Assembly: GCF_047663525.1 (NCBI RefSeq)
Contig: NC_092601.1
Location: forward strand, 19,380,001-19,444,000
From: Anas platyrhynchos
Taxonomy: Eukaryota > Chordata > Aves > Anseriformes > Anatidae
Direction: 5' to 3'
Length of the DNA: 64,000 nucleotides
Shown here: piece after piece, positions 6,360-60,900 of the stretch
Position numbering within the stretch: position 1 is the stretch's first letter
Layout: each line of letters opens with the position of its first letter
Position numbers and translations under genes: made by a program
Notes under the pieces: model-generated
The model's database searches: none
What the model saw: the letters and a program-made list of their open reading frames with translations, nothing else
What the model was told of the DNA's origin: nothing

Positions 6360-7371
6360 TATATTTATTCCTTCTTGGTTTTAAAGGACAATATATTCAG
6401 ACAGCTTTAAATACAACGTCCAACAACTCTCTGATGAAAGCAGCAACAGTACAGCATGTGCGCTTATGTTCATGTCCACTGACATCAGCCCCGTCCTAGT
6501 GGTAGACATCTCCTGTTAAAAAATAAAATCAGACATTTAATGTTTCATCAAGTGAGAAGTGCTGTCTTAGGCACAAAATAAGCTGGTCAGGCAGAGACAA
6601 GACAAGCCCTGGAGAATACCAGAGGAAGCGACATAATGAAATGTGGGCAGGAGAATCCCAGGGTTCTCACCTTTATCCCACCCGTTCTTGGCTCAGGGAA
6701 CGCAGCAAACGGGCGCAGCTCCCTCCCTGACCCTTCACACCTCAGTCCCATGGAAGAGCGTGGGGGGAGGTGAGAAGCGCAGAGAAGAGGAACAAACAGG
6801 AACGTGGCCCCTGCTACTGCTGCAGCTGGCCTGAGGCCAGCAGCTCATTTCCCCTGCAGCCCCCAAGCGCCTCGCAGGCGGTCGCTGAACGACCCCTTCC
6901 TGCCCCTTCCTGCCCGTTTCCTTTCCTGCCGCAGCCCCAGGCTGGGCGGGTGAGGAAGAAGCAGCTGCTACCAGCAGCTCGGAGCTGTGCTGGCAGACAC
7001 AGCGCAGCCCAGCACACCCTGTGAGTGGCTGAGGAGCAGCAGAAAGATGGAGCTCCGTGACCACCGCGTCAATTCACTGCTGAATGAAAGACCGGTGGAT
7101 AACTGCGGTGCTTGGAGTGCCAACGGGGCGAGATCAAAGGTCGCTGAGCCTCACGCCCTCTCTTTTGGGAGCAGGAGATGCTTCCAAAGCCACGCACAGC
7201 TCATCCTCCCAGCTCAGCAGGCAGCTGCTGGCCTCCCCCTGCCATCCAGTGTTGGTTGCCTCGCACCACGCTCCCCTTTGCAGGCATCACACGGGGACCC
7301 TGCGCGTGCAGCCACCACCCCACACAGCCGCAGAGACACACTTGTACTTACTCTGCTTTGAAGAATGGCTC
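6360..7371 (-). other. NDUFAB1: NDUFAB1 3' untranslated region with an intron
   Basis: After the stop codon at 7374-7372 the exon continues 20 nt to a strong donor (GTAAGTA, exon end 7352). A matching acceptor (TTTTTTAACAG) opens a 3' UTR exon at 6512. The likely polyadenylation signal is AATAAA at 6369-6364. A second AATAAA on the same strand at 6005-6000 could give a longer form. Confidence 0.6.
6364..6369 (-). terminator. Poly(A) signal AATAAA, NDUFAB1
   Basis: A canonical hexamer on the minus strand (TTTATT on plus) lies about 145 nt into the inferred 3' UTR exon. An alternative copy lies at 6000-6005. Confidence 0.55.
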
Positions 7372-9600
<2,229 letters not shown>

Positions 9601-9636: not shown

Positions 9637-21965
<12,329 letters not shown>

Positions 21966-54000: not shown

Positions 54001-57000
54001 ACTTCAGAAATACTGAACTTGAAACCGGTCTAGAATGTGAGGGAAAAGGATTAATTACCTCAATACTACTCACGTATTTACAACACTTTATCAGTAAGAA
54101 AAAACCAACATGTGCCCAAGTTATAGAGGAAAAAACGCAGCGTCCCTGTCGCTTAGCCTAAGAGATCTCACTGCGATTTATACCAGTGGAGATTTTAAAG
54201 ACAGAAAACCCTCGAGTTCACAATCAAGTCTGTCCTACATAGGAAAGGTCAAAAACTTTTGAGATTTCTGCTTACTTTGGAAATAACGTAGCAGCTGGAG
54301 GTGCCATCCAAAGCTAACATTACCATCCAATTAGGTTATTTTACTGGGACAGCGAGCAAGCACTTCTATTCTTCTTGCTCATCAATATAACACTGCCCCA
54401 TCCTGGTCAAACTAAAGGCTTCCTTTGGAGGCAGGGGGATTATCTGAGACGTCCTCAGCAATGCACGTTATCACCACAGCACTGTCAGCTCCTCCTGGCA
54501 CCGCTCAAGACGGTAAACTGATTCCTCTGCACAGCAACACATGCCATAGTTTCTGCAGTTGTACATCACTGAAACAAGACACCCAACTGATTTTGGTTGG
54601 AAGGACAAATAACGACAGAGATGCCAGCACTCCTACTCTTATTCCCAGCTCTACGATTCTCTTTTGAGTCGCAGCCAAGTCATTGAGCCGCTATGTGATG
54701 CTGGCATCAAACCAATGTTTATGAAGTACTTTCGAGATACGTTAGAAATGCCAAATATTGTAATTTATATTTGGACCTATGAATAGCAGATTGGAACGTC
54801 AGTCTACTGGCACAACTGAACTCATGTTTTCCAAGAACAGAAATAAAATATCAACCAATAGTCGATAATACGAGAGAACAGCATTTGAGAACCAGCAGCA
54901 AAACTTAATTCTGAGGTAATAAAATAACAATATTATTCCCCGAACACAATTTAATCACATCAGAAACTTTCTAGCTCACACAGTTCACTTATACCCCAAA
55001 CATTAATTATTCATCTCAGAATTTGAGTCGCTCACCTTTTGTACCAATCCATAGCTGGTCTTGCTCAAGTTTGAAGGTCAATCTTACTTTCCCCCCTGAT
55101 TTGTTGTACATGCCAGATAATGGCACCGTTGGCAGGCGCTCCTACAAAAAAAGCAACACAGTAAGGTGCGGTGAAACACTAACAGGAGAAGGCTTGTCCT
55201 TTTGGATTTTTAACCATACAGATGATCTGATTTCCCAGTTTTCAGAAGAAAGAAGAAGAAGGAGAGGTAAAGCCATCAAAGAAAGGTCTCAGGCCATAGA
55301 AAAAGCCCTCTCTTTTCTAATTGCAACAACGTCTCAAGTACTCATTTACTGACCTGAACGCCTTTAACAGAAGGCATCACATCATCGGGTTTTCCTTTAT
55401 CCAATACTTTTCTGTGTTGCTACAAGGTAAAAGCAGAAGTTAGAATTTACAGAAACACCAGAGAATTGTTCACGTTACTTCTAACGCGCCCTGAGCTGAC
55501 CATCACCCAACAGCGCCAGTTAAAAACTATTCAGTCACTTATCACACGGGAACTGTTAATTTTCAAAGTTAACGAGCACTTCCTAGGAGAGTCTAAACAA
55601 ATTATATAGATGAATAAAATCCCAATACAATGCAAAGGGTAACATCCCTCGTAGAATTCACGTCTACACTGTATGTATACAAAGCCCACGCCTCACAATA
55701 GCGTCGTACATGCTGAATCACATTGGTGGCATTTGGCAAGACAGTTTGAACAGTCCAGTGTTACACTCAGTGAATGGCAGAAAACCCTCCACATCTGACA
55801 GCGCAGCATAGCGCAACACAGCAGCAAACCAGGCCAGATTAGAGCAGTAGTAACTAAGAAAAACATGCTCACAGCTCGTAAGTTGCTGAGTACCTTTAAA
55901 CAATGATGGAACTTACAGTGAACGTGAACTATGATAAATTACAGAGAAACAAAAGCACGTCTCATAAAGGTTGTAGATCAATGGTGCACGTTTTAATTTT
56001 TATTTAAATTTATTCTGAGAGGGGCTGGTGATACCTTGAGCTAAAAATCCTTTATCAGCCCACCGTGCTGCAGCACAGCCACCAAAACACGCCTGGCTGC
56101 ATCGTGCTTCGCTTGCTACTAGGAGGCAACGCTTTGACGCAAGAGGAGCATTCACAGCAACCACGCTCCCTGCAGCGCTTGGGAAGCTGAGAGAATTGCT
56201 CTCTTGGTGTCCATTTAGAGGCAGTTTTTGGAAACCAAGTTCTTCTGTGTCTACCAAAATTAGTCAGGTTTTGGATATAATTAATCTTGGCTGCGTTTGA
56301 GCTAACAACCATGAAACATTTCCTTTATTTAACGTTTCTGCCTGAAGTGCCTGGCAGCAGCACAGGAGGTGTCCTGAGCACCAGGCTCCGCTGGGCCGGG
56401 TGTTTCTGTGCTGTGAGACCCTCTCCACACTCGGCTGTCCCAACCAAAGCCCCTGCCCTGCTCCGAGGGCCCCACGGCGGCTGCAGAGCCCCACAGGAGA
56501 ACCGCCCAAGCCCCGCAGCGCTGCCCCCCGGGCTCGCGGAGCCGCCCACAACCTTCTGCCTGCAGAGCGGCTCCTTCTTGTTCTCCTCGGCCTTGACCTC
56601 CTGCTGGGCGGCCTCCTTGGGCGTGTTGACCGCCAGCACGTCGTTGATGGTGGAGCCCACCACCATGATCTTGGCTCCGTTCGTCACCTTGATCTCCCGC
56701 AGCGTCTTCTCCTCGGGCAGCAGCCCCTTGAACATCACCTTCTGCATGGCGGGCGGGAGGCCTGCGGGCGATGGGGGGGGGTTACCGGGGGCCCGGCCGC
56801 CCCGAGGGGCTCGGGGCCGCCCCCACCGACCTGTGAGCGAGTGGATCTCCTGCTTCAGGTCGGCGCCGGTGCCGTCCAGCCGGACCTTGACGTCGTACTT
56901 GTTCTTGTTCCAGATCACCTTCAGCTCCACCAGCTCCTCGCCGCCCTCGGCCGCGCCGCCGTTGCTGACGGAGGCCGGGGGGAGCCGGCGCCCCTCGCCC

Positions 57001-57284
57001 TGCGGGGAGCCGCCCTCCCCCCCGCAGCCTCCGGCCTCCGCCTCCATGGCCGGGCCCTCGGCACCTGCGGGAGCGCACGGGAAGGGACGGGACGGGAAGG
57101 GACCGGCAACCGGGTGCGGCACCGGGCGCGACGGCGACACCGACACCAGCCCCAGCCCCAGCCCCAGCCCAGGCCCCCGGCCCAGGCCCCCGGCCCCGCC
57201 CCGTGCGGCCCAGCCGCCCCCGGCCGCCCCCCGGCGCCCCCCGCCCCGGTGCCGCCCGCTCGTACCTGGCGCGGCGGCGGCCAT
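51074..57284 (-). CDS. UBFD1: Ubiquitin family domain-containing protein 1
   Basis: Seven coding exons, 57284-57266, 57064-56831, 56761-56553, 55419-55354, 55141-55036, 52518-52436 and 51184-51074, give 828 nt, 275 residues (human 309). The first coding exon is only 19 nt (MAAAAP plus one base). A short acidic, Gly-rich N-terminus precedes the ubiquitin-like domain (ELVELKVIWNKNKYDVKVRL to IMVVGSTINDVLAV). Next come QHRKVLDKGKPDDVMPSVKG, ERTEKLPMGSIKNVVSEPI, and a highly conserved C-terminal domain ending DTVLGKWQYF. The molecular role is poorly known; the family name comes from the ubiquitin fold. It is shorter than human mainly at the N-terminus. Exon 3 ends at a weak donor (GTTGTG), accepted because both flanking sequences match the family in frame. 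Divergent from EARS2. Confidence 0.95.
57115..57195. repeat. CAGCCC/CAGGCCCCCGGCC short repeat in UBFD1 intron 1
   Basis: CAGCCC-type hexamers, followed by two copies of CAGGCCCCCGGCC-like sequence, lie between coding exons 1 and 2 of UBFD1. It is low-complexity GC-rich DNA. Confidence 0.75.
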
Positions 57285-57906
57285 GATGATTGTGTACAAT
57301 CTGCCGCGGGGCACGCCGGGAAGCGCCCGCCGCGGGGAGCGCTGGGGGCTGGGCCGCGCCGGCACCCGTAGCCCCGCCCCCCCCGGCCCGGCCCCGAGCC
57401 CCGCGCGGCGAGAAGGGGGCAGCGGGGCCTTTACGGGGAGCCCCGCCCCTGCAGGCTGCGGGCGCGCTGATTGGCTGAGCGCTGAGGGCGGAAGGGGCGC
57501 GGCGGGACGGAGCCGGCACCCAGGGCGGAAGTGGCGCCGTGATTGGTTGGACGCTGAGGGCGGAAGTGCCCTGAAAGGTGGTGCCGGCACTGAGGGCGGA
57601 AGAGGCGCTGTGATTGGCTGGACAGTGAGGGCGGAAGCGGCGTGCAGTGCGAGCCGGCACTGAGGGCGGAAGCACTCCGTGATTGGCTGGGAACCGAGGG
57701 CGGAAGTGGTGTGTGGGGCGTGCCAGCACTGAGGGCGGAAACAGTCTGTGATTGGCTGGCTCTTGAGGGCGGAAGCGGTATCAGGGCGTGCCGGCAGTGA
57801 GGGCGGAAGCATTCTGTGATTGGCTGGGAACTGAGGGCGGAAGCGGCGTGCAGCGCGTGCCGTAGCTGAGGGCGGAAGCGGCGCGGTGCCGGCCGGGCGC
57901 TGCGGG
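57285..57906. promoter_or_regulatory. Divergent UBFD1/EARS2 promoter
   Basis: 622 bp between the two start codons. The UBFD1-proximal third is CpG-rich. The EARS2-proximal two thirds are a tandem array of CCAAT and GGGCGGAA sites (57465-57880). There is no TATA box. The last GGGCGGAA (57869) lies 38 bp from the EARS2 ATG, so part of the array is probably in the 5' UTR or at the start site. Confidence 0.75.
57465..57880. repeat. Tandem array of CCAAT and GC-box/ETS motifs (35/70-bp periods)
   Basis: GGGCGGAA starts at 57485, 57522, 57557, 57593, 57628, 57663, 57697, 57732, 57766, 57800, 57833 and 57869, i.e. every 33-37 bp. ATTGG (inverted CCAAT) starts at 57470, 57541, 57612, 57681, 57750 and 57818, i.e. 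every 68-71 bp, and each is 15-16 bp before every second GGGCGGAA. So two diverged ~35-bp half-units alternate in a ~70-bp higher-order unit, six copies. GGGCGG is a Sp-factor core and GCGGAAG an ETS core; GATTGGCTGG is an NF-Y core. Spacer sequence between sites is less conserved. Confidence 0.93.
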
Positions 57907-60900
57907 ATGGCGCGGGCCGTGCGGGCGCTGAGCGGCGGCGGCGCGGCCGGGCCGGGGCCGGGGCCGGGGCCGGGGCCGCGGGTGCGCTTCGGGCCCAGCC
58001 CCACAGGTACCGGGCGGGGGCGGGCGGGGGGCGGGGGGCGCGTTCGGGGCCGCCCCGAGGCTCCCCCCGGCCGTGACCGCCCCGCGCCGTCCCCGCCGCA
58101 GGTCGGCTGCACCTGGGGGGGCTCCGCACCGCGCTCTGCAACTTCCTGTTCGCCCGGCAGCGCCGCGGGGCCTTCGTGCTGCGCATCGAGGACACCGACC
58201 GGCTGCGGGCACTGCAGGGCGCCGCTGACGGCATCGAGGACATGCTGCAGTGGGCAGGTAGCGGGGGGGGCACGGCACGGGGCAGGGCACGGGGCAGGGC
58301 ACAGCACGGGGCTCAGCACCCCGCGGGGCCGGGCCGTGCACCGGACGCCTCGTGCCGGGAGCAGCACACAGCTGCTCACAGCCCCCCCTGACAAATTATA
58401 CAATAAATGAAAGGATGAACTGCACGTGCGGTGTTCACCAAAAGGCGTCTGAAGGTGTCGCTTTGTGCTCTGAGTCCTCTGCTGTTTGCTTGACCCTAAG
58501 AGTGAGGGGAACTTCAGAGCAAGCAACTGCAATGAACTTAGAGCCAGATCCCGCCAGTGTCCCCACAAACAGATAAATTTTGGAGATCCGTGCCATTGAA
58601 TACTAATTCTGGAGCAGGTGAAACAATTGGCCACGATCCCGGCTGTATTTCTGAAGCACCCTTTGTACACCTACCCCTGACTGATCCTTGCTGCAGGTCA
58701 CCCATCAGAGCTGCCTGACCATTCACTGGCTTTAGCTGTTTTTCCTGCTGTGGGCTCCCCACACAACGCTCCATGCCCTGATGTCTCTGCCTTTCCATGT
58801 TCCAGGCATTGCCCCTGACGAAAGCCCTCGCCGTGGCGGTGCGTTCGGGCCCTACCGGCAGTCGCAGAGACTCGACCTGTACAGGCAGGCCTGCGACGTG
58901 CTCCTGGACCGCGGCGCGGCGTACCGCTGCTTCTGCACCCCGCAGCGCCTGCAGCTGCTGAAGAAGGAGGCGCTGCGGAACCAGCAGACCCCGCGGTAGG
59001 CAGTCCTCCTCCCCGGCCATTGCTTCTGTGCTGCGCACTCCCAGCCCCTTGGGACAAGGTGTGTGTGCTGGGAGTGTTGTCTCTGCGCCCTCAGAAGCTG
59101 AGGGGGGTGATGTCCAGAGATGAGAAGCTGACTGGAGTGTAATGGGCAGACCACAGCTGAAATTCAGGAATTTGTTTAGATTTGATCCCATGTAAGCGTG
59201 GTGGGGGTTGGTGTGTGTTAACCTGAGACCCCCGCTCTCCTTTCTCGAAGGTACGACAACCGCTGCCGGCACCTGACGCCCAAAGAGGTGGCTGAGAAGC
59301 TGTCGCAGGGCCTCGACTGGGTGGTGCGCTTCCGGCTGGAGAGGGGCGTGGAGCCCTTCCAGGACCTGGTCTATGGCTGGAACAAGCACGAAGTGGCAGA
59401 GGTGGAAGGTGACCCGGTGATTCTTAAGGGGGACGGCTTCCCCACCTACCACCTGGCAAACGTGGTGGATGACCACTACATGGCCATCAGCCACGTTCTG
59501 CGAGGAACTGAGTGGCTTACCTCAACGTCCAAGCACCTCCTGCTCTACAAAGCCTTTGGCTGGGATCCCCCTCAGTTTGGCCACCTCCCGCTGCTCCTGA
59601 ACAAGGACGGTGCTAAGCTGTCGAAAAGGCAGGGGGACGTCTTCCTGGAGCGCTTTGCTCAGGATGGCTACTTGCCAGAGGCCCTGCTGGACATTATCAC
59701 CAATTGTGGCTCTGGATTTGCAGGTAAGGGGAACGGGCTTGGCACTTGCTCGGACACTCCATGATGCCGACTTTTGGGCAAATTGGTTCCCAGTTTATTC
59801 TTGTATTCAAGAACTTTGACAGTGTTCAAAAGGATCAGGAAATAGTAGTCAAGCAACCAGTCTGAAGGGGCTTCTGTCACCAAAATGCTGCCAGGGCTTC
59901 TGCAGAGCTCCTGGGAAGGCCTCGGTGGTGGCCTGGGATGGTGGCAATGTTTCTGTCCACGTAAGTGGAGTCTAAAGTTTAAAGACTTCCTACTGGACAA
60001 CGTCCTTCTCAAGGTGAAGAAGCCTTCTGCAAGCTCTTGGGAAAACTTGTATTCTGTAGTTAATGATTGCAGCCAAGTAACACATCTTTCACACTTGTTT
60101 AACCTGAAAGACCGTGAGAGGTTGACTCAGTTACTCCTTTTGCTCTCGCTGTGTGACTATTGCATGAGCTTATGTCTCAGGAACTTGGCTTGGGAATGAA
60201 ACCTTTACTGGACAGCAGAGCCTCCTGGCCAGGTGTTATTTCTGCTGGGCCGAATGATGCAAGGGGTGTTTCACTGAAGGGTGTAACAGAGCCAGGCAGA
60301 ATGTCCCAGTTCCTAGTTCCTTCACGGAGTCTGCTCGTCCAAAGAGGGCAACTTCCAGTGCGTGCCTGCCAGAAGTTCCCTCCTCGTATGTTGCTGCTTC
60401 CTATCAGCGCCGTGGAAGGCAGCCCTCCTCCTCCTCTCTCACCTCTTGGCCGTGCTGCTGCACCAGCGCTGAGCCTGGGGTTTGCAAGGAAAAGCAGTGA
60501 CTTCAGTTCTCTGCTGGAGAGCGAATGCAAATCATAACCTCCTTGGGTTACGTTGCAGAGAAGCAGATGGGGAGGACTCTGGAGGAGCTGATCTCGCAGT
60601 TTGAAATTGGCAGGATCACGACCCATTCCGCCTTACTGGATCTTGAGATGCTCCCGGAATTCAACAGGTACAAACACCGGTGGTAACGTTAAATCTGAGT
60701 GGTCTGCTGCAGGATGTCTGCTTGGGGGTTTGATGTTGCTTTTCTAGCAGGTCTAAAGATCCAGCTGGTAAGTGTTGGGAGACTGAGATCATTAACGTTG
60801 GACTAACCCAAAGCAGTCTAAAAGCAGTTCTTTCCCTTGTCACAGGGTGCACCTCGCTCGCCACATTGAGAATGAAGAGCTTCGGCAGAAGCTAATTCGG

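Follow-up and report, generated by a model that had tools for sequence, protein, structure and literature searches.

The NF-Y (CBF) minisatellite upstream of ABO has an allele-specific number of repeats, and four repeats are linked to higher reporter activity in the available text of the report (PMC2988417). In human TERRA promoters, which are composed of 61-29-37 repeats, each 29-bp repeat contains two putative NRF1 sites and CTCF sites lie ∼300 bp downstream, according to the accessible part of that account (PMC6600276). The PO41 repeat of chicken and quail is presented, in the portion of its description at hand, as a tandem repeat of subtelomeres that is transcribed, in association with RNA polymerase II (PMC4301066). 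Tandem NF-Y repeats are also a feature of the U3 region of LTR12/ERV9, in which they form related subtypes, occur genome-wide and function as promoters or enhancers, as far as the excerpted text states (PMC11853044).

Here, we describe an array of CCAAT boxes and GC-rich motifs between UBFD1 and EARS2 in a 64,000-nucleotide stretch of duck DNA (the window), together with related sequences elsewhere in the same 1.26-Gb genome; the contig of the window is labeled C15, and the other contigs are labeled likewise. By analogy, the array may work like the ABO minisatellite, and it resembles the LTR12 and human TERRA-promoter repeats. It shares with the ABO minisatellite the tandem CCAAT-factor motif repeats near a gene, but, whereas the consulted part of the ABO report describes a single locus ∼4 kb upstream, the window array abuts a gene start, pairs each CCAAT with a GGGCGGAA at a fixed spacing, and has relatives dispersed over other subtelomeres. 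Human TERRA promoters, as partially described in the source cited above, are subtelomeric CpG islands with tandem factor sites, and the duck islands, which are uneven in CpG content and have putative factor sites, also face the chromosome end; the repeat and its motifs differ, however, and the window copy would serve two paired genes. The LTR12/ERV9 unit differs, in the text seen, in its 41-nt length, its GATA/MZF1 sites and its position in a retroviral LTR. The PO41 unit is 41 bp and its promoter is only presumed in the accessible text, and we set it apart by this description rather than by sequence. Neither the array nor the family was found in the literature searched, as judged from titles and the beginnings of abstracts. 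What is surprising at this locus is the kinship of a real, constrained, promoter-like array with telomere-facing copies on other chromosomes.

The repeat array at the UBFD1/EARS2 locus

A CpG island (57000–58100; GC 0.79, CpG observed/expected 0.89, and 0.98 in the array) covers the starts of both genes. On the forward strand, the first coding exon of EARS2 (57907–58006) begins with MARAV, its end being set by eye at ACAG/GTACCG; exons 1 and 2, joined by hand, match tRNA-synt_1c, a class I Glu/Gln tRNA synthetase domain (E = 1.4e-21), and we take this synthetase to be the mitochondrial EARS2, based on its pairing with UBFD1. On the reverse strand, the 5′ part of UBFD1 (57047–57284) has candidate starts at 57284 (MAAAAPG, followed by a donor-like site) and at 57047 (MEAEAGG...); UBFD1 has a ubiquitin domain and matches PDB 1v86 (E = 3.7e-38), presumably mouse Ubfd1. 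The head-to-head start codons are less than ∼1 kb apart in DNA with an unmethylated-type CpG content, as is characteristic of bidirectional CpG-island promoters, this distance being one between start codons and not transcript starts. The promoter location of a tandem array built on CCAAT and GGGCGG-type motifs, as put forward in the preliminary description, is upheld.

The array itself (57468–57880, forward strand) is comprised of six dimers of ∼69 bp; a dimer contains a single ATTGG, which reads CCAAT on the reverse strand, and two GGGCGGAA. The array reproduces the earlier counts and places of twelve GGGCGGAA and six ATTGG. Across the whole window GGGCGGAA occurs 15 times, including the twelve in the array (57486 to 57870), in comparison with 2.8 expected from shuffles, the largest of which held 7. 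TRF reports a period of 69 bp and 5.9 copies (57468–57879). Two types of unit can be distinguished by the five bases before CCAAT: GGCGC (type I) and CACTC-like (type II). Type I includes unit 1 (57468–57539, ATTGG at 57470), whose assignment at the GC-rich array edge may be due to chance, unit 2 (57540–57610, ATTGG at 57542) and unit 3 (57611–57679, ATTGG at 57613). Type II includes unit 4 (57680–57748, ATTGG at 57682, CACTC), unit 5 (57749–57816, ATTGG at 57751, CAGTC) and unit 6 (57817–57885, ATTGG at 57819, CATTC).

The regular spacing reported earlier holds, with corrected ranges: successive ATTGG are 72, 71, 69, 69, and 68 bp apart (68–72 rather than 68–71 bp), and successive GGGCGGAA are 34–37 rather than 33–37 bp apart. 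Every second GGGCGGAA is preceded by an ATTGG, as had been noticed, at a start-to-start distance of exactly 16 bp in all six cases instead of 15–16 bp, and in five cases the next ATTGG follows a GGGCGGAA at 18–19 bp. To call the array phased is doubtful, because 68–72 bp does not correspond to a whole number of helical turns; the 16-bp spacing alone is rigid at the window locus, and it becomes 17 or 19 bp in some relatives (three of ten pairs at 16 and seven at 17 bp on C35, 16 and 19 bp on C4, and one of 19 bp on C12). The final GGGCGGAA ends at 57877, and 29 bases separate it from the EARS2 start codon at 57907; the 38 bp given previously fits the start of this last motif.

We assign the putative binding sites in the array by their fit to consensus sequences. 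All six CCAAT boxes, on the reverse strand, match the extended NF-Y consensus RRCCAATSR, and tandem units that each carry such an extended-consensus box (6/6) are the ABO-type arrangement. The previously proposed combination of NF-Y with GC-box/ETS sites is retained for the CCAAT and GC-type motifs, and its ETS component is weak at this locus: GGAAGT is present in 3 of the 12 window motifs, the 5′ flank is GGGC and not ACC, and a CCGGAAGT-type core, which we take to mark a high-affinity ETS site, does not occur in the window motifs.

A family of related arrays on other contigs

The ∼68-bp dimer, whole or in part, is present on eight other contigs, and on seven of these it lies within 505 kb of a contig end. 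A genome search with the 69-bp consensus gave the best matches on C4 (E = 1.7e-13), C35 (3.7e-12), C12 (3.0e-10), and C13 (8.1e-8); further searches added C14, C8, and C11, and C5 and C9 were located via their flank. Family counts are lower bounds, since the search scores only the best candidates. At C9, the flank was found with no array in the 401 bases read. Copy number spans one half-pair on C14, which has one GGGCGGAA pair without CCAAT, to about 11 dimers on C35, and on C11 (3432050–3432450), at a distance of 3.4 Mb from the contig end, about two dimers survive in decayed form in DNA that is not part of an island. The pair ATTGGCTG-N5-9-AGGGCGGAAG occurs 14 times in the 1.26-Gb genome, in each instance within the family (C15, five; C35, seven; C4 and C8, one each), and the reversed control occurs nowhere in the same genome; the arrangement is therefore a sequence lineage, and housekeeping promoters of this genome do not commonly have it. 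On C8, C12, and C13, some relatives read GAAGTGACGTCA, which we regard as a combined ETS/CRE-like site.

Outside this genome, the viral contigs searched yielded no matches, and a single match in a proteobacterial MAG contig, from the genome contig search, was taken as chance. Two GAGGGCGGAAG lie 30 bp apart on C2 (158531479–158531519), upstream of an ORF that starts, by eye, with MLEAAEAELDAEDLVHFSVGD; this pair has no ATTGG nearby, shows no similarity to the other loci among the matches listed, and is apparently unrelated.

Eight of the ten places, counting flank or array, are less than 1 Mb from a contig end, a zone that makes up at most 6.7% of the genome (binomial p = 1.5e-8), and all ten read toward the nearest end (binomial p = 0.002); without the window, these values are 1.8e-7 and 0.004, and both tests ignore the non-independence of duplicated ends and a possible preference of gene-dense DNA for ends. 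By array alone, eight of nine read toward the nearest end, the array on C13 being inverted inside end-facing flanks. The distance to the contig end is 38 to 505 kb for the arrayed islands, 3.1 Mb for the array-less C9, and 850 kb for the window copy. TTAGGG arrays form five of the six contig ends sampled, a sample that leaves out C5, C8, C9, and C11, and the end of C35 is N. On C14 the telomeric repeats stop between 6.3 and 10 kb and the island is at 38.5 kb, i.e., ∼28–32 kb away; on C13 they stop between 5.3 and 15 kb and the array is at 171.7 kb. Adjacency to the TTAGGG tract, which would mark a TERRA promoter, is thus absent from the sampled stretches of C14 and C13, and we do not file the family under TERRA promoters because of this distance on C14 and because the window copy would serve genes.

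Long CpG-rich flanks are common to C12, C13, C14, and C35, and are partly present at C4, C8, C5, and C9. The islands at C12 and C14 have a CpG observed/expected ratio of ∼0.9–1.1, and the arrays at C8, C13, and C35 have a lower one. Within the flanks, ATGGCGGC is intact at C5, C9, C12, and C14, GCGCATGCGC is present at C14 and has closely similar forms at C12 and C35, and another site recurs at C12, C13, and C14; we take these to be YY1-like, NRF1-like, and ZNF143-like, respectively. Downstream segments conserved among C4, C8, C12, C13, and C35 contain an acceptor-like TTTGTCACAG, which suggests that these parts of the islands may give rise to spliced RNAs.

Similarity between the window array and its relatives extends to the spacers and to unit order. 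The order is I I I II II II on C15, I II on C4 and C12, and I II II on C5; the typing leaves out a C5 match that lies outside the array and the first C11 match, which is ambiguous. A clear type I unit was not seen on C8, C13, or C35. Over 155 consecutive bases, the C12 block can be aligned with a stretch of C15 at 75%. In a tree of 32 rows, with C8_4 left out, in which the bootstrap had not settled and 21 of 28 inner branches are open, C15 units 1 and 2 group with C4 unit 1 (support 82/84), units of C8 and C13 share another kind (98/97), and 9 of the 11 C35 units cluster together. The alignment for profile R1 holds 24 of 30 units, without five C35 units and the broken C8_4. From unit order and grouping, therefore, the arrays seem to have moved between chromosomes as blocks, and then to have grown or shrunk locally. 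The simple local tandem amplification envisaged in the preliminary description gives way to a dispersed, mainly subtelomeric family with a unit order shared across chromosomes.

Function and origin of the array

We consider it fairly probable that the array is a homotypic NF-Y and GC-box/weak-ETS promoter array for EARS2 and/or UBFD1, and a member of the mostly subtelomeric ∼68-bp dimer family, shaped by block exchange and local expansion. It would form the core of the CpG-island promoter that UBFD1 and EARS2 share, acting as a homotypic cluster of six NF-Y sites, each at the fixed 16-bp offset from a GGGCGGAA (a GC-box and at best a weak ETS site), with six further GGGCGGAA. NF-Y at the repeated CCAAT boxes would hold the DNA nucleosome-free, a role that is stated in the available portion of PMC11853044, and GC-box/ETS factors alongside would help to initiate transcription of one or both genes. 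The last CCAAT, 88 bp before the EARS2 ATG, would suit transcription that begins a short way 5′ of this codon, and the plus strand has no ATG from 57465 to the start codon. The family lives mostly near chromosome ends, often in end-facing CpG-rich islands, and a block would have been exchanged between chromosomes, possibly through ectopic recombination or conversion, before its local expansion. If so, minisatellites with a regulatory role can pass from one chromosome end to another and be built into the promoters of housekeeping genes that are unrelated, the islands are named places in which to seek promoters of bird subtelomeric RNAs, and the range in copy number provides a natural dose series for the NF-Y/GC pairs usable by a promoter.

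Alternatively, the EARS2/UBFD1 promoter was itself the source: one NF-Y/GC pair was duplicated locally, and copies were later captured by chromosome ends. This history, which we hold possible though doubtful, overlaps with the favored reading because the latter specifies no direction of transfer between subtelomere and EARS2. It agrees with the presence of a real gene pair and of intact motifs in every unit at this locus. The subtelomeric blocks, however, sit between long shared flanks that are absent at C15, where the alignment with C35 covers 57467–57880 and that with C14 (104 bp, 77%) reaches 57922 at most, and they carry TGACGTCA (C8, C12, and C13) and TTGCATCA (C8 and C13), both absent from C15; neither difference fixes the direction. 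As the homology at C15 gives out at the array edge or shortly beyond it (57880 to 57922 at most), the donor locus is not directly shown.

The array could also be neutral, GC-rich tandem DNA spread by unequal exchange near chromosome ends, which landed in or grew from a promoter with its motifs as passengers. The concentration near contig ends and the wide range in copy number fit such a minisatellite. In addition, the dimer is able to spread or linger without being useful, since copies with imperfect motifs persist (53 exact motifs in the 75 places of 25 units outside the window) and the C11 copy has decayed. Against passenger status, the motifs are better conserved than the spacers, as previously claimed: with the six window units aligned, 0 of 21 motif columns vary vs. 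36 of 51 other columns (Fisher p = 1.4e-8; 1 of 71 circular mask shifts equals this contrast), and conservation stretches over TGATTGGYTG and, in most units, GAGGGCGGAAG. CpGs are retained at 12/12 positions in motifs and at 19/36 consensus positions in spacers (Fisher p = 0.004, or 0.009 after dropping one column of doubtful polarity), and 11 of the 17 lost spacer CpGs are now TG or CA. The 16-bp spacing, which is kept in 6/6 units at the window locus, also counts against neutrality.

Because the window motifs were picked by eye after the sequence had been seen, the same motifs in the other arrays provide the fairer test. Mean diversity is 0.035 in motifs vs. 0.192 in spacers on C35 (0 of 68 shifts as good), 0.073 vs. 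0.251 on C13 (3 of 67), and 0.102 vs. 0.33 in the 25 non-window units pooled (1 of 72); on C8 the contrast is weak (0.154 vs. 0.37 in three units, 5 of 67 shifts as good), unit C8_4 being left out and the mask also missing one motif there. Gene conversion inside an array could keep parts alike without selection. In the window, the motifs are exact at all 15 places of the five units counted, more than in the 25 other units, as expected if constraint were tighter at a gene promoter, and some of this excess is ascertainment. We consider the neutral explanation unlikely, and purifying selection would account for the motif constraint.

Another proposal places the array downstream of the EARS2 start site, where it would act within the leader RNA, or as a skewed tract prone to R-loops, and not through binding sites. 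GC skew does become positive across the array (0.34 at 57500–57999), but positive skew is expected because the G-rich motifs all face one way, the G-quadruplex pattern is absent on both strands, and a leader RNA leaves the conserved CCAAT boxes unexplained; we regard this role as improbable. Least probable of all is an identity of the dimers as enhancer repeats in the U3 of an avian LTR element, for which the human LTR12 U3, with 5–17 tandem ∼41-nt repeats containing NF-Y sites in the accessible text of PMC11853044, offers a model and a gag-like ORF near the C13 array (resembling an endogenous retroviral gag by eye; stretch L029, reverse-strand coordinates 7203–8813) a hint, since the shared flanks instead resemble a CpG-island promoter (at C14, GCGCATGCGC, ATGGCGGC, and the ZNF143-like site) followed by the acceptor-like segments.

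Neighbouring subtelomeric repeats

A 62-bp tandem unit at C35:175091–175368 carries motifs that we take to be ZNF143-, ETS-, and YY1-like (268 matches; the 40 best of 456 candidates scored). Among the matches listed, all are near contig ends (C1, C2, C4, C5, C8, C11, C12, C13, and C35), on the plus strand at left ends and the minus strand at right ends, and on C13 they recur about every 15 kb from 57 to 165 kb. On C13, C12, C4, C8, and C35, the NF-Y array lies closer to the centromere than the nearest listed 62-bp array, by 4–19 kb, and so gives the impression of marking where a subtelomeric macrosatellite has its inner border. Against such a border, the listed 62-bp arrays on C5 are ∼350 kb off, though a diverged 62-bp-like stretch directly follows the NF-Y array there, and no NF-Y array was found to accompany the 62-bp arrays of C1, C2, and the right end of C11. 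Degenerate telomere-like CTAACC repeats (C35:175026–175083) lie beside the 62-bp array, ∼4 kb from the NF-Y array.

An 81-bp tandem repeat of 10.9 copies occurs on C35 (stretch L027, 1381–2258), ∼2 kb further out than the island, and also at C12:60001–60300; its core, CCAGCAGGTGGCGG, fits the CTCF consensus, a point of likeness to the human TERRA promoters with their downstream CTCF sites. The zero matches from a genome search with the 81-bp unit are uninformative, as the search skips very common words and the unit does form at least one array. In the 64-kb window, which contains a CCCGGT-type repeat tract of ∼500 bp at 19040–19546, neither the CTCF-like nor the ZNF143-like repeat core had any match.

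Taken more broadly, birds may own a subtelomeric promoter family, in which telomere-facing CpG islands with amplified NF-Y/GC-ETS/CRE-like dimers, at the inner border of macrosatellites carrying promoter-like (ZNF143/ETS/YY1-like) and CTCF-like minisatellites, would drive chromosome-end RNAs, and from which the array would have been handed to EARS2/UBFD1, with selection keeping every motif; we offer this as a tentative scheme that is rather less than probable.

Beside the C12 island, a 415-aa ORF (stretch L028, reverse strand, 1324–2568) resembles, by eye, a carbohydrate sulfotransferase (CHST5/6-like), and a GC-rich tandem repeat with GGGCGGCGCCGCGCTTAAATGTGCCC is present at C14:18001–18300.
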